Shown here: in pieces, positions 39,216 to 53,634 of the stretch
How positions within the stretch are numbered: the first letter of the stretch is position 1
Layout of the letters: the number at the start of each line of letters is the position of its first letter
Assembly (NCBI RefSeq): GCF_018873765.1
Contig: NC_057917.1
Coordinates: forward strand, 53,375,464-53,439,463
Direction of reading: 5' to 3'
Length of the DNA stretch: 64,000 nt
Source of the DNA: Telopea speciosissima
Lineage: Eukaryota > Streptophyta > Magnoliopsida > Proteales > Proteaceae
Notes under the pieces: generated by a model
The model's input: the letters and a program-made list of their open reading frames with translations, nothing else
Told to the model about the DNA's origin: nothing
Databases searched by the model: none
Position numbers and translations under genes: made by a program

Positions 39216-39890
39216 TTGTTACAGGTGCAAATGGCATGCCTCAGCCTACATTACTACAACTGATAAGTCATGATTGCTCCAAGAAAATAAGAGTTGAATT
39301 TTGAACCTATAAGTATGTGGAGTTATTTTCCATTTGTTCATAATTCAGTTTTATTTTGTTCTTCTGCCACCAATTCCATAAAAAAATCTCCTTATAGGCA
39401 GGATTTTAAGCATTGCAGAAGATACTGAATGAGAAACTAGTAGGACTGATATCATCATCAGGATGGAAAACTAAAAACAGCATCCATGACCTAGATTTCA
39501 AGAATTAGGACAGACATCCATGTTCCCCATGTGGTATCCAGTTTTTATCTAAGCCTGAGCATCTCAGAATGCACCCAAAGCATATCTAAGCATCTCCCAC
39601 CCAAGTACTTTGATGATTCCTTCTGAGGACTAACAAACAGAGAAATTTACCTAAATACATGGATAATAGCATCCAGTGATTATGGGCGTTTATGCTATAA
39701 ATGTTATAAAGTTATAATATTGTCTCTTGGATAGATTTTCCTTTGACTATTTTTTTTCCAGATTTCCTTTTTCTGTCACATTACAAGAATGGGTTGATTG
39801 ATGCCTTCAAAACTAAAGGAAACTTAAGCCTATATAGAATAACACGACGTGCTGCAAAGAATGATATTGTATATGGCTATATGCTACTTT

Positions 39891-40061
39891 AAAAAAAGGC
39901 CGTACCCAGTGCATGAGGCTCCCGCCACTGCAGGGTCTGGGGAGGGTCATAATGTATGCAGTCCTACCCCTGCTTTCACAAAGTGGCTGTTTCCAGACTT
40001 GAACCTGTGACCACTTGGTCACCATGGAGAAACCTATACCGTTGCATCGAGGCCCGCCCTC
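39891..40061 (-). mobile_element. Au-type SINE, full length
   Basis: The minus strand reads GGGCCTCGATGCAACGGTAT (tRNA-like A box), GGTTCAAGTCT (B box), CAGACCCTGCAGTGGCGGGA and GCACTGGGTACGGCC, ending in a short T run. This is the structure of the plant Au SINE family. It is flanked by an exact 17-bp duplication TGGCTATATGCTACTTT (39874-39890 and 40062-40078). It is Pol III-type, non-coding and depends on a LINE for movement. Confidence 0.9.
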
Positions 40062-40098
40062 TGGCTATATGCTACTTTCAGCATATCAAATTGTCTTA

Positions 40099-41241
40099 GG
40101 GAAATTTTCATCGACACCCCCTCCGATGGACCATTAAATTAATGCCACCCCTGTAAGGGCCAATACATCAATTTTGGCCCAAAAAAGAAGTGCAATTAAA
40201 ATGACTAAACTACCCTTTGCTTAAAACATAAAAAACCCAGCCCCAACCTATCGAATCATCTCTTGAATAACCCTGGAATTAACTGACTGGCTCCATCAGG
40301 GTATAGTTTGAAAGAGAAGAACCCTGGAGCAGGATCCATTGAATTCTTCAATTAAAAAATGAGCCCAATCTTTCCACCCAGCAACCAAGTGTCGGTTGGG
40401 TGATCAAAGCTCTTCCAGATTAAATTAGACGAAATTGAGACATTTCTCAAAACAAGATTTCCAGAGTCAAGAAGTGCTACCTCAGTAAAATTGATCAAGG
40501 ATGTGGAGATCAAATTTGTAGACCAGATAACGGTGTTCAATGAGTTGAGGATGACTACATTCCCATTCTCTAACAGCTTCAGTTGTGAGGAATGCTTATA
40601 GGAGAGGGGTTTGTCTCTGTTTGCCACCCAAATGACCGTCCTCTCCGACGAGATCTTTCTGTACCAGATACCGATGTAGTAATTCTCAGACTTATCATCT
40701 GGTGTAAAAAAACCCAATTCGAAGTTCCCATCTCCTTCAGAGACAATGGTCTGATCTCCAGAAATAGATTCACCAATAGAGAGGGATGCCAGCTCCGACA
40801 GAGAGGTGGGTGTTGTTGAGAGAGAAGCAGAGAACCAGAACAGAGAGGCAAAAACATGCTCTGATTCTCGCACCCATCATCATTGCATACCACAAAAGCA
40901 CTGAGAGATAAGCTAGATTTTTAGTAGACGAAGAAGAGGAGGACAAGAAGAAGAAGAAGATAACATCAAGGCTGTCGACCCTCTCCTTGAACACCAGGGT
41001 TTTGAAACCCTAAAATGGGAATATTCCCTCTCTGATTCCTTATTCCATTGATTAATATAAAAAAGGAAAAAAGGTAACAAGGGTAAAATAGTCTTTACAA
41101 AAATATTAAGATGCTGACATCACTAATTAACAGTTCAAAGGCTTTTTCCTTTAGTTTTTGGGCCAAAATTGATATATTGGCCTTTACAGGGGTGGCATTA
41201 ATTTAACGGTCCATCGGAGGGGGTGTTGATGAAAATTTCCC
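40099..41241. mobile_element. Pack-MULE carrying a receptor-kinase gene fragment
   Basis: Terminal inverted repeats of about 87 bp, with roughly four mismatches, start GGGAAATTTTCATC and end (inverted) with TTTTGGCCCAAAAA. An exact 9-bp duplication ATTGTCTTA flanks them (40090-40098 and 41242-41250), which is the size typical of Mutator-like elements. No transposase is present. Instead, the 970-bp interior is largely a fragment of a G-type lectin S-receptor-like kinase gene (next entry). TIR length, TSD size and captured host sequence together define a Pack-MULE. Confidence 0.88.
40352..40888 (-). pseudogene. Captured 5' fragment of a G-type lectin receptor kinase
   Basis: Two minus-strand frames belong together. 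The first encodes a signal peptide (MMMGARIRACFCLSVLVLCF, from about 40888). The second, after a 1-nt frame change near 40775, encodes the bulb-type lectin domain: SIGESISGDQTIVSEGDGNF, ELGFFTPDDKSENYYIGIWY, VIWVANRDKPLS, then DSGNLVLRN and LIWKSFDHPTDTWL. The sequence stops there, before the S-locus glycoprotein, PAN and kinase domains. It lies wholly inside the Pack-MULE. Given the frameshift and truncation it is not expected to make a receptor; small RNA or a decoy-type secreted product cannot be excluded. Confidence 0.8.
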
Positions 41242-41508
41242 ATTGTCTTAACACATACTTCTGAGGCCCAACTCAGAACTGTTCTTGAGAGCTTGTATAA
41301 GGGAAGGAACATGTAGCCACAAAATTTTAGATTTCAGATAGAGGAAGAACAATTGGGCTAAGGCTGAGTTTGTTGTTGTTATATAGAGGACGAATAAGGA
41401 CATGGATGATGCTACAAATCTCATTATATAGTTATATATTGAAAAAAACATTACCAAAGCATGATAACTTTCAAACTTCCAAGATTTAAGATTACCTTGC
41501 GTAGAACA

Positions 41509-48153: not shown

Positions 48154-51150
48154 TTCAATCCATTGATCTTTGCAGTCCGACGTTGCAAGTATGTCTGGTT
48201 TGATTAATGGGTTGTAGAGTTGGGTGATCAGGTCACAACTCACAAGCATGCAGCACATTTGCGCCTTCAAAGCTGCCGGAAAGACAAGGAGTCCGGGCAA
48301 AGTTACTGGTCAGATCAGCCAGTCGGCGTGAACCAGCAAACTATTTGTGTCGACATTGTTTGGGTAAGCAATTGGGCGAGCATCCATCAGCTGAAAGAAA
48401 AGGGTTCCATGTCCAACCGATGATGGTGTTAGTTTGGAACTTTTACTGTTCTCTTGGACCAAGAAGCCCAGACGGGGAAGCAAGCTACTGCTTGTTTCTG
48501 GGGATTTTTTAAGCGATGCTAACCATGTTCCCATTCAAGTCACACATCATGAAAGCTTCTTAACACATGGGCCTCAATCAATTACAGCTATTTCAGAATC
48601 AAGAAGTGTGAAGATGCGAAGGAATAGACATGATCTGAACAACTGAGAGTTGACTTAAATTGGACAGTTATATTCTTCTATCATTGGAAGAAAAAGAAGC
48701 TGAGGAAATCTATTCCCATTTGAATCTTTTAGGTTGAAGGTTTAAAAAAAAAAAAAAAAAAAACATATTCTGGTTAGTGGACAGGAGGGAAATTCTTTGG
48801 ATTTGCAGCATGGGCTCTTCCTTTGTTTTTTTCAGGAAAAATGTTTTTGGAGGCGGCCATGCTCAGACACAGTGGAGGAGAAATGACTGCCCTACCCCCT
48901 TGAAAGGTAGAAATCTCGTCCCCACAAATGCCACAACACGTGTTTGCATTGGTTGCTGCTTGTGCTCCCCCCACAAAGAATGTTCACCTTTTTTCTATTA
49001 GTAAATTTTCTCTTGAACCCACTCAGCCTTGAATTGAGATCCTCTCCAATGACATTTAACCACCAGAGTCGATCTCACATAATCCATGGGGTGTGGTCCC
49101 CATACTCCAAAGATGGTGCGAGATCGATTCTAGCCTGTCATTGGAGAGGATTTGGCCTCCTCAACCTTATACCAACTCAATGGGGTTGGCTATATGGATC
49201 CGAATGACCAAAATTAGAAAAAACAAATATCTACTCAAAAAGGAAAAGAAAAGATGGAAAAAGAGGAATGAGGAAAGAGATGAAAAATGAAAAAGAAAAA
49301 AAAACATATGCAAGATGATGAATAAATAGAAAAATGAATGAGGCAAGAGGCACAACCTAGCACATCGAGAGAACAACTACCTAGGATCTACGACATGGAT
49401 CCTTGCCCTCCAATCGGCTCTGTTCGAGGCCATACTTGGTACAAGACCTAGGCTATGCATGATCCATAATATCTCAAAAAGATTACTCTTTCATACAATT
49501 CTGGAAGCATGATTCTAACACTTTTTTTTTTTTTGGTAGATGATTCTAACACTTTGTTTTCCTGAAAACATGATTCTTACAATTGATATTTATTAAATAG
49601 ATGATTATTATATATCAAAAATATTTATGATACAATAATGTATTAGAATTGTTTCTTGCATCTTCGGTGTGAAGAAGTAAGTTGCGGGAATCTTGGGTGG
49701 ATCAACTACAAAATATGTATAATTAACTCATCTAAACCTTGTTTCAACGCATCATTCATTTTAATTAATAGATATAACAGCTGTTAATTTATAGCAAGAT
49801 TATACTGTTCATATATACAAAGAGATATTTATTAGTATTTCCATCAAACATTGAATGTAACAGGGGGTTAAGAGATTGCTACTTGGTCGTGTAGCCCTGC
49901 ACCAGTGTAGGGGGCCAATGAGAGCATACATGCTTAGAGCATCTATATGGGTGGGAATTTTTATTTCACTTGGGATTGAACAATCATTTCACACGCTCCT
50001 AGGCTAAGTCTGTGCACAGAAACCACACTACCAAGCAGGGTTTTTTTTTGCTACAAGAGGTTTGTAATGTTTTTGGAAGTCACAAGACAGATTTGAGCGG
50101 TCCATTTTCAAGGGTTTTCCAATCTAAGGCGTATGTACAGATGTACCTGCTCAAAGTTGAGAAACTGCAGAGCAATGACTAGAGTATTACAAACATGGGC
50201 ATACACAGGATGAATGCTAATACAACAAGGGTATTTGATAAAATCGACTCTAAAATTTTATACATGACTAATCTTGACCATGTCTTCTCAATCCAATGGT
50301 TGAAATGGATATTTCATCTATCCACGTGGCATAATAGGTATCTTATGATGTTTGGAAAAGTAACAAATTCTTGTGACAATAATATTTTGTCTCTTTTATA
50401 TAGATATATAATATATAATAATAAATTATTATATAATCATTAATAACAATCATTAATCATCATTCCCTTGATTGGATTATGTTGGCCATCGGTGGATACA
50501 CTTATGTGTTTGTCCTGATCAATGATGGGTAATGGTATTCAACACGCCCTCCCCACACCCGAAAAAAAAATAAAAAAAAATGGTCATGGTATTATGGTCA
50601 ATGACTTGTGGAAAGTCAATTAACCACAATGATGTCTGGGACTGGAAGTCTTTGGGCTTCAATTGGTTCAGAAGTTGGAAAACTTTGTTGCTTCAATCTG
50701 TTAATGGTTCCATCTCAGGGGAAACAGAATTCACTTCCTTGAAGATCTGAAAGCATTATAGCAGAGACATCTTCAGACAATGCAACACTGCAACTACAAT
50801 CATCTTGAGTCCTAACAATTCTTCTGCTTTCCACAAATTCAAAAAATGGGTAGAAAAGGTAATGAAATATCCAAGTTTGTTACTTTGTCATCAATAATTC
50901 AAGCAATGAGAAATAATAGCCCCTCAAAACAAATCTAACCTGTCAAAACTTAATCTTTCCTTTCTCTTCCTTACATAACTTTGCAATTTCTTTTGTTCTA
51001 TCTCTTCTTACAATCTCAAACCTTTCGTAGTTTTCCCTGCCCATTTCATCAAAACTTCCAATACGGAAGTTTGAGTTATCTTGAAGATGCCTGAAATTAA
51101 CAAAAATAGATGACCCATGTCTGGTCTAATCCAGTCAGAGATTCTGCAAC
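48154..51150. other. Intergenic region with small TIR repeats
   Basis: No gene was supported. At about 48815-48975 is a variant of the small TIR family (GGCCATGCTCAGACACAGTG ... GTTTGCATTGG), preceded by an A19 run. At 49868-50048 is a clearer copy (ACTTGGTCGTGTAGCCCTGC ... AGAAACCACACTACCAAGCA). The stretch nearest 51150 is the likely promoter and leader of the LRR kinase but shows no distinctive box. Confidence 0.45.
49868..50048. repeat. TIR element of the TGGTCGTGTGG family, copy 4
   Basis: Left end TTGCTACTTGGTCGTGTAGC; right end CACAGAAACCACACTACCAA is its inverse. Inside are GGGGCCAATGAGAGCATA and a T-rich/AAAT block like the other copies. No coding sequence. Confidence 0.6.
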
Positions 51151-53634
51151 ATGAGCAGTACTCAGAAATTCTCCATCTGTTTCATGGTGATTGTGTTTCA
51201 ATTGGTAAGCTCCATTTCATTTGGTGCTGATGGGTACTACCTAGATGAAAGAGATGCTCTGTTTCAACTGAGGGATTCCCTTAATTCAACAATTGATTTG
51301 CATTCAAATTGGACTGGTCTACCATGTTATGGTGATTGGGGTAATTGGGCAGGAATTACCTGTTTGAATTCGCATGTTATCCAAATTTCCCTAGATGGGT
51401 TCCAGTTGACAGGTTCCCTTCCCCCAATGTTTCTTCAAAACCTTACTTTCTTGAATAAACTTAGCTTGCAAAACAATTCACTCTTTGGCTTTCTTCCCAA
51501 TTTCACAAATCTTGAGTTCCTGCAATACATCATCCTCTCCCATAACAACTTCTCAGGTTCAATCCCATCAAAGTTAATCAATTTGCCATTATTAGCTACG
51601 CTAGAGCTGCAAGAGAATACTCTTACAGGGAGTATCCCACCTTTTAATCAATCCAGTTTAATAGTCTTCAATGTTTCATATAATCTCCTTGGAGGCTTGA
51701 TACCTAAAACCCCCATTCTTCAAAGGTTTCCAATGAGTTCCTTTGTCCATAACTCACAACTTTGTGGGAATCCTTTGGGAGGGCAGTGTTCTATTAGTCC
51801 TGCTCCAGCATATCAACCGATTCCTTCCCCAAGCCCTTCTAGTCCATTGGCAGGGAGTAGCAAAGTTGTCAAAGTATGGATTGCTGCTTTGGTAGCGGTT
51901 GTGGTGGTTGCGCTGCTCACTGTGATCTTGTTTACCATATTGTGGTGTCGTAAGAGGGTGAACAGAGAAATAAATGTTGTGGAATCTCCAGGTATGTCTT
52001 TTCTTCTTTGTTCAATTTTTTTTTTTTTGGAATTTGTAAAAACACTTCAAATTTTTTCTTGTCAAAAAGGTTTTTGGAAGAATTGCAAAACATGAAACAC
52101 ACCACAGGTTGCTGTAGAATGACATCATTATTTTCTGTGGTCTGCTCTGTGTTCAATGCAGCATCAGGCCTAGCATCCCTTTAGGTGGATATTTTGGCAA
52201 CTAAACTCAAATAAGAACTTATACATTTTTTCAGAAAAGAAAACTAACATATGGTTATTAGATGATAGTTAACAGTGCAATGTAACACAGCTTCTGGTTT
52301 GAATCCCTCGATGGGAACTCTCGAACTATGTGTCAGCATCATTTCGTATTTGAAAATAGTTGAATTCCCATGAAAGTTTGCTATTAATTCACTGACATGT
52401 AGAATTTGGAATCCTGTTTTTCTTTTTGGTGACAGTTGCAGGTATTATAAATCGGGTGGAAAAGAAAAGGCAAATCTTCAGAAACAGGAGAGATCCTGAA
52501 AGAACAGTAGAATTGGACAAACACAAACCAATTTTAGATCTGGATTATCTTCTGGGAGCTTCTGCAGAACAATTGGGGATGGGGAAATTAGGCAGTACAT
52601 ATAAAGCAACCCTGGATTGTGGTTTGGTTGTAACAGTAAAAAAGATCCAGGATATGAATGGGTTAATAAGCAACAAGGAATTTGTTCAACAGATGCAATT
52701 GGTGGAAAAGATTAAGCATGAAAACCTAGTAGAGATCATATATTTCTTCCATTCCAAGGATGAGAAGCTCATTGTCTATGAATATGTCAATCATGGCAGC
52801 TTGTTTGAGCTATTACATGGTAAAATTCTCTTCCTTTCCTTGGTCTAATCAATTCATAACATCATAAACTAAATTCTCATTGCTTAGGTAAAGAATCCTT
52901 AACAGAAGTTCATCATAATCTGGTAATGCATATTTTTTAACACCATATATGCTGCTAGATTGACATAAATAATGGGCTTAACCAGTTTGTTAAAATCTCA
53001 TATGTTTGTAAAAAAAATTCAAACTTTTTTTTGTGTTACAGGAAACAGAATGGAAACAAGAACTCCAGTGAAGTGGAGTACAAGATTGTCAATTATCAGA
53101 GGTATAGCTGAGGGCCTGAATTTCCTTCACCAATCTTTGCCTTCTCACAAGGTTCCCCATGCCAACCTCAAATCCTCAAACATTCTAATCCATCTCCATA
53201 ATAAAAAATACCATCCTAAGCTCACTGATTTTGGATTCCTGCCACTGCTATCATCTCGTAAATCCTCTGAGATGCTTGCCGCTGGACAGACACCGGAATT
53301 CTCTCAAGCCAAGAAACTGACCCACAAAACTGATGTCTACTGCTTCGGCATTGTACTTCTAGAGGTCATCACTGGACGAATACCGGAGGCATCTTCACCA
53401 GGAAATGACGATAAGCCAAATGATCTCGCAGAATGGGCAAGGGAGGTTGTTAATGTTGACTGGTCAACAGATGTATTGGATATAGAGCTATTAGCAACAG
53501 AAGAAGGCCAATGTGAGATGTTTAGGCTCACAGAAATTGCACTTGACTGTACAGCTATTGAACCAGAGAAGCGTCCGAAGATGAGTGAAGTGTTGAGAAG
53601 AATCGAAGAGATTGAAGAAAGAAGCTGCAAATGA
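51151..53634 (+). CDS. LRR subfamily III receptor-like kinase, probably catalytically inactive
   Basis: Three exons (51151-51991, 52436-52819, 53042-53634) join in frame into 605 residues. A signal peptide (about 1-26) is followed by a cap (WTGLPCYGDWGNWAGITC) and about five leucine-rich repeats (LQYIILSHNNFSGSIPSKL, LATLELQENTLTGSIPPF). A serine/proline juxtamembrane stretch precedes one membrane segment (about 242-266, VWIAALVAVVVVALLTVILF). The cytoplasmic kinase-like domain keeps a glycine loop (LGMGKLGSTYKA), the VTVKK lysine and DFG (LTDFGF). The catalytic loop HRD is replaced by HANLKSSN and the APE by PEF, so phosphotransfer is unlikely; many family III members are such pseudokinases. 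It would act at the plasma membrane, ligand unknown. The chosen ATG opens a strong signal peptide. Confidence 0.88.

Follow-up and report, generated by a model that had tools for sequence, protein, structure and literature searches.

Pack-MULEs, non-autonomous Mutator-like elements (MULEs) that carry fragments of host genes, were reportedly described in rice by Jiang et al. in 2004. Pack-MULEs, or other gene-carrying MULEs and related transposons, are on record in several plants (PMC3310237, PMC8903248, PMC13317346, PMC2846932 and PMC2528002, each cited here from excerpts): the excerpt of PMC3310237 counts 46 Pack-MULEs in Arabidopsis, 220 in tomato, 2853 in rice and 276 in maize, the tomato elements being most abundant at 1000–1200 bp. 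Here we report on an element of 1,143 bp in Telopea speciosissima, at positions 40099–41241 of a 64,000-nt stretch of DNA (the window; C2:53375464–53439463, contig NC_057917.1 of assembly GCF_018873765.1). A first-pass annotation, made from the letters of the window alone, had read it as a Pack-MULE carrying a captured 5′ end from a gene for a G-type lectin receptor kinase. Its coordinates were correct to the base and our results agree with its reading of the cargo, which consists of a 5′ untranslated region (UTR), a signal peptide and the start of a lectin domain. We put a probability of about 0.91 on the element being a non-autonomous MULE (Pack-MULE) with a G-type lectin receptor-kinase 5′ fragment whose donor cluster lies at C1:7.82–7.86 Mb. 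It is a genuine Pack-MULE, ordinary in kind: the phenomenon is common in plants and not something new. All genome searches were run on the window's own 823-Mb assembly, and positions without a prefix are those of the window.

Like described Pack-MULEs, the element has terminal inverted repeats (TIRs), a 9-bp target site duplication (TSD), no transposase that was found, a host gene fragment and a length of about 1.1 kb, and several different cargos occur within its TIR family; it departs from typical ones in the length of its TIRs (see below) and in its donor, a G-type lectin receptor kinase. The features that define a Pack-MULE are in place: no transposase was found inside, the host gene fragment has a parental gene elsewhere, and the TIRs are shared by elements without this cargo. 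The left TIR (40099–40185, plus strand) and the right TIR (41155–41241, minus strand) are 87 nt long and identical at 83 of 87 positions (E = 4.7e-35 by BLAST within the window), in line with the length of about 87 bp first proposed. An exact 9-bp TSD had been proposed too, and it is present at both ends: ATTGTCTTA occupies 40090–40098 and recurs identically at 41242–41250, abutting the element end (no strand is assigned to either copy). This length falls within the 9–11 bp criterion for MULEs; as a control, an exact 9-bp match was found in 3 of 20,000 random pairs of window positions when the ends were free to shift by up to 2 nt. The absence of a transposase, also part of the first reading, holds for a six-frame reading and for a Pfam scan of eight stretches of the element (three and five further ones; frames below 60 codons were mostly left out), among which only the lectin stretch scored above cut-off.

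The TSD, an empty site and the TIR family establish that the element is an insertion. The empty site lies on C11, where the right flank of the element (1000 nt) has a duplicated counterpart at about 57.17–57.18 Mb (three out of three candidates scored); 5 kb of this counterpart (L045, C11:57179500–57184500) were taken for comparison. Left of the element, the flank can be aligned with this counterpart up to 39873 (75%), and to the right from 41406 onwards (83%), with order and strand preserved. When the flanks are joined without the element and with one copy of the TSD, their alignment with C11 runs through the joint (68 columns, 82%, E = 1e-12), and the counterpart at the joint reads AAATT-TCTTAA, a single copy near the target sequence. 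The exact 11-base TIR start is absent from the 5 kb of the counterpart. With a neighbouring short interspersed nuclear element (SINE) removed as well, one alignment of 965 columns (73%) spans both insertion places. As the flanks are continuous on C11 without the element, the TSD or the SINE, both insertions postdate the duplication. The duplicated region of the window's neighbourhood comprises C11:57172812–57173388 and L045, with 70–83% identity in the longer pieces, which points to an old segmental or whole-genome duplication.

The captured fragment (40277–40954, minus strand) holds the 5′ UTR, the signal peptide, the start of the lectin domain and a short piece past it. Within it 40277–40935 shares 85% identity with C1:7850179–7850871, and a match to C1:7823623–7824337 (80%) reaches 40954. 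Most of the B_lectin domain is found in an open stretch of 174 codons (40355–40876, minus strand; Pfam B_lectin, E = 6.7e-28) that has no Met and ends at a stop (40352–40354); among S-receptor kinases in the PDB it matches SRK8 (E = 1.2e-28) and SRK9 (E = 4.2e-25). A stop-free run of at least 174 codons appeared in two out of 1000 dinucleotide shuffles of the element (the longest had 193). The signal-peptide-like frame MMMGARIRACFCLSVLVLCFSLNN... (40773–40883, minus strand) stops after 37 codons owing to a frameshift near 40785: immediately past the signal peptide the element carries a single base more than six relatives. The signal-peptide-like and lectin stretches are thus in different frames and do not form one coding unit. 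Further along, the cargo also has 27 nt fewer than its nearest relative; a second open stretch (LKNSMDPAPG..., 40259–40351, minus strand) comes after this internal loss, with its last codons entering the MULE end. The signal peptide plus bulb-lectin coding fragment of the first-pass annotation is therefore right as to both stretches and wrong as to their forming an intact unit (frameshift, 27-nt loss, stop, no Met). An intact frame running from signal peptide through lectin and transmembrane parts to a kinase is not found here: the frame is shifted and stopped, and the cargo ends upstream of the kinase part. Judged from these frames, the cargo as it stands cannot yield a lectin protein.

A donor was sought as had been suggested, and a cluster exists elsewhere: on C1, G-type lectin receptor-kinase genes in tandem match the element from position 179 to 837 or 856. 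Its nearest member, g4 (C1:7848337–7850918), is the sister of the cargo (support 100/99). The two differ at 59 out of 651 aligned sites (9.1% substitutions; Kimura two-parameter distance 0.097). When substitutions are assigned by a strict outgroup rule, the element has 22 private ones (one outside aligned codons; 10, five and six at codon positions 1, 2 and 3) and g4 has 18 (four outside aligned codons; five, five and four at codon positions 1, 2 and 3); by these counts, which are small, both look little constrained. No disablement is common to the cargo and g4 within the captured stretch, which was therefore probably open at their split. None of the four cluster genes (L013–L016, C1:7820000–7859999) keeps one long frame: their longest frames have 507, 430, 674 and 608 codons (counting frames of 120 codons or more; errors in the assembly could play a part). 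Relatives with open frames are found at C9:9331659 (855 codons), C1:41110464 (847) and C1:41069785 (835). There is no TIR match at E = 1e-4 across the 40 kb of the donor cluster. No donor closer than g4 was found among the best 40 of 448 candidates by DNA or in 132 out of 132 by protein, nor do these candidates include a second copy of the cargo between the same TIRs.

The first-pass annotation had also recommended a search for other elements sharing the TIR, and such elements were found. A pattern of the TIR start (the first 30 TIR positions, 25 of them specified, two mismatches allowed) has 161 matches genome-wide (83 + 78), and the backward control has 0. We compared 18 paired elements, including that of the window; they form groups by shared interior, and the window element has only its ends in common with the other 17. 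Its left MULE end (40099–40270, plus strand), i.e. the TIR and subterminal sequence common to family members, is shared over element positions 1–118 with L009 and L010, over 1–153 with L023 and over 108–172 with L011; the left subterminal part resembles L011, L021 and L023. Its right MULE end (40961–41241, plus strand), subterminal sequence plus TIR, is common to L009, L010 and in part L011 and L012, the similarity to L009 and L010 extending over about 281 bp. The annotation had named two outcomes that would count against it, the lack of a donor elsewhere and TIRs belonging to a larger conserved gene structure; what we see is a donor elsewhere, TIRs shared by other elements and a duplicate on C11 without the element.

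Recognisable gene fragments are present in 10 out of 18 paired elements, the window element among them. For example, an isochorismatase fragment is carried by six elements (L025, L026, L028, L030, L033 and L035), all of them at protein-search matches, with a Pfam E value of 2.3e-34 for the frame in L028; its likely source is C6:46420475 (83%, covering only query residues 67–222). The isochorismatase frames are open over 223 codons in L028 and 230 in L030, and the fragment might still be expressed. In another example, L009 and L012 carry part of a frame of 744 codons located at C3:22592086. L027 has a kinase-like piece, below the Pfam cut-off, that resembles C2:1354657 (a 745-codon frame there). 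For one frame each of L010, L022, L029, L032 and L034 the Pfam scan returned nothing above cut-off; L021, L023 and L031 resemble L029. L010 has a left end like that of the isochorismatase subfamily and a right end like that of the L009/L012 subfamily, and looks as if ends had been exchanged between elements. TSDs were compared in 23 elements: 11 are exact, six have one mismatch and six have two or more. These elements are not all independent insertions, as one TSD is common to L021 and L023 and a near-identical one flanks L031 (the three are probably copies of one locus); L011, L020, L024, L037, L040 and L042, which have no clean full TIR pair in the stretch, are outside this count.

Two described cases are close to this family. 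As in the tomato PM-ZIBP family (excerpt of PMC3310237), MULEs carry a gene fragment with an identified parental gene, and the isochorismatase cargo is also multi-copy; PM-ZIBP differs in having 14 copies, 13 of them with TIRs in tandem, whereas the TIRs of the window element are single and one copy of its cargo was found. As with the transduplicated fragments in grapevine MULE, CACTA, PIF and hAT elements (excerpt of PMC2528002), pieces of host genes have been captured outside the grasses; the cargos named in that excerpt are different, namely cellulose synthase, PPR and ULP. Our literature search, which covered open-licence papers only, returned no Pack-MULE case with a lectin receptor-like kinase.

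A possible source of transposase is at hand. Among the pattern matches listed, related TIR starts are paired in two places, at spacings of 6.8 and 7.9 kb. L043 (6,829 bp) resembles MuDR-type autonomous MULEs: its TIR is related, its TSD is exact over 9 bp, and stretches of it match the mudrA-type domains DBD_Tnp_Mut (E = 2.9e-16) and SWIM (E = 1.4e-8), so that the TIRs of the window element are related to those of an element with a mudrA-type transposase. L044 looks as if it were filled by a Copia-like retrotransposon.

Several observations weigh against the Pack-MULE reading. The TIRs (87 bp at 95%) are slightly below the 100–500 bp given as typical in the excerpt of PMC3310237. Six out of 23 family elements have no good TSD, and many of the TSDs are AT-rich. 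L043 differs from MuDR-type MULEs: its TIRs are 85% (87 nt) and 82% (67 nt) like those of the window element, its MULE-domain piece (E = 3.9e-5) reaches 24.5 bits against a cut-off of 27.6, and its transposase is in separate open stretches, for which reason we regard L043 as a relative of the helper and its helper activity as putative.

The first-pass annotation called the event fairly recent in view of the few TIR mismatches; we reject this, for although the mismatches are indeed few (4/87), the nearest donor found differs from the cargo by 9.1%. TIR divergence at four out of 87 sites is a weak measure, roughly put at about 1 to 11%, and equal likeness can occur between TIRs of different elements (95% for one on C9). 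We take the distance to g4 as an upper limit on the age of capture, and only as that, because the gene that actually gave the fragment may no longer exist; insertion may have come later still.

If the cargo made small RNAs, by read-through or from the TIR inverted repeat, that silenced the lectin receptor-kinase family, the element would be a regulator; the first-pass annotation had raised small RNAs against the donor family. A small-RNA effect on donors is described in the excerpt of PMC13317346, and, out of 664 exact 21-mers of the cargo, g4 shares 88, g1 61 and g3 42. However, g2 shares only two, L017 shares 10, and the open-frame relatives L018, L019 and L036 share 14, 22 and 11, numbers inside the range (1 to 34) of what they have in common with the cluster genes themselves; the best-matched targets may themselves be dead, given the broken frames of the cluster, and the lack of a second cargo copy among the best 40 of 448 candidates also speaks against it. 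We consider such a regulator unlikely. A wider version, in which one MULE family that captures genes repeatedly, receptor kinases included (L027, for one, carries a kinase-like piece), has small RNAs feeding back on the donor cluster, so that capture and receptor decay would be linked, strikes us as still more doubtful.

The open lectin codons, a run matched in so few shuffles, could mean that the fragment was retained for a function, as a short new gene for a secreted or decoy lectin, but the signal peptide is out of frame with a lectin stretch that has no Met of its own, and the private substitutions of the element, small in number, are not mostly at position 3; we rejected a coding lectin gene for its broken frames and see very little chance for it. 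The fragment is degenerate and several members of its family are broken in this genome, as might be expected of a local receptor-kinase pseudogene that happened to lie between two MULE ends. Yet there is no other lectin stretch below E = 0.1 in the 64-kb window, the limits of the cargo coincide with the ends of family-shared sequence, and one exact TSD encloses everything; the empty site, with continuous C11 flanks and no fragment, contradicts it. The local pseudogene was rejected on the TSD, the window search and the empty site, and is the reading to which we give the least credence.

Returning to the Pack-MULE reading, an ancestor of the element would have acquired the fragment from the g4 lineage through the still-debated process of MULE capture, and a MURA-type transposase acting in trans, from a relative of L043, would have brought the element here. 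It would since have decayed and is probably a silent gene fragment without protein product, i.e. an inert carrier, as far as can be judged from the sequence. The element is a clean example of gene capture, with ends, TSD, empty site, cargo limits, donor cluster, siblings with other cargos and a relative with transposase pieces all identified within the same assembly. Rice alone has thousands of Pack-MULEs (2853, excerpt of PMC3310237), and this is one more case. It is useful as an annotated example, and it cautions against taking this lectin match for a receptor gene.

Two neighbours of the element were also noted. Stop-to-stop frames at 51130–53634 resemble a leucine-rich repeat receptor kinase gene in pieces (recognised by eye). 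Just left of the element (39874–40078) lies the SINE-like insertion mentioned above (about 39891–40061, probably on the minus strand), which has a 17-bp target duplication, TGGCTATATGCTACTTT, and is missing from the duplicated region on C11. We take it to resemble the Au SINE; its relatives are abundant, with 4263 first-look candidates, and among the best 40, which were scored, the others are at 88–91%.
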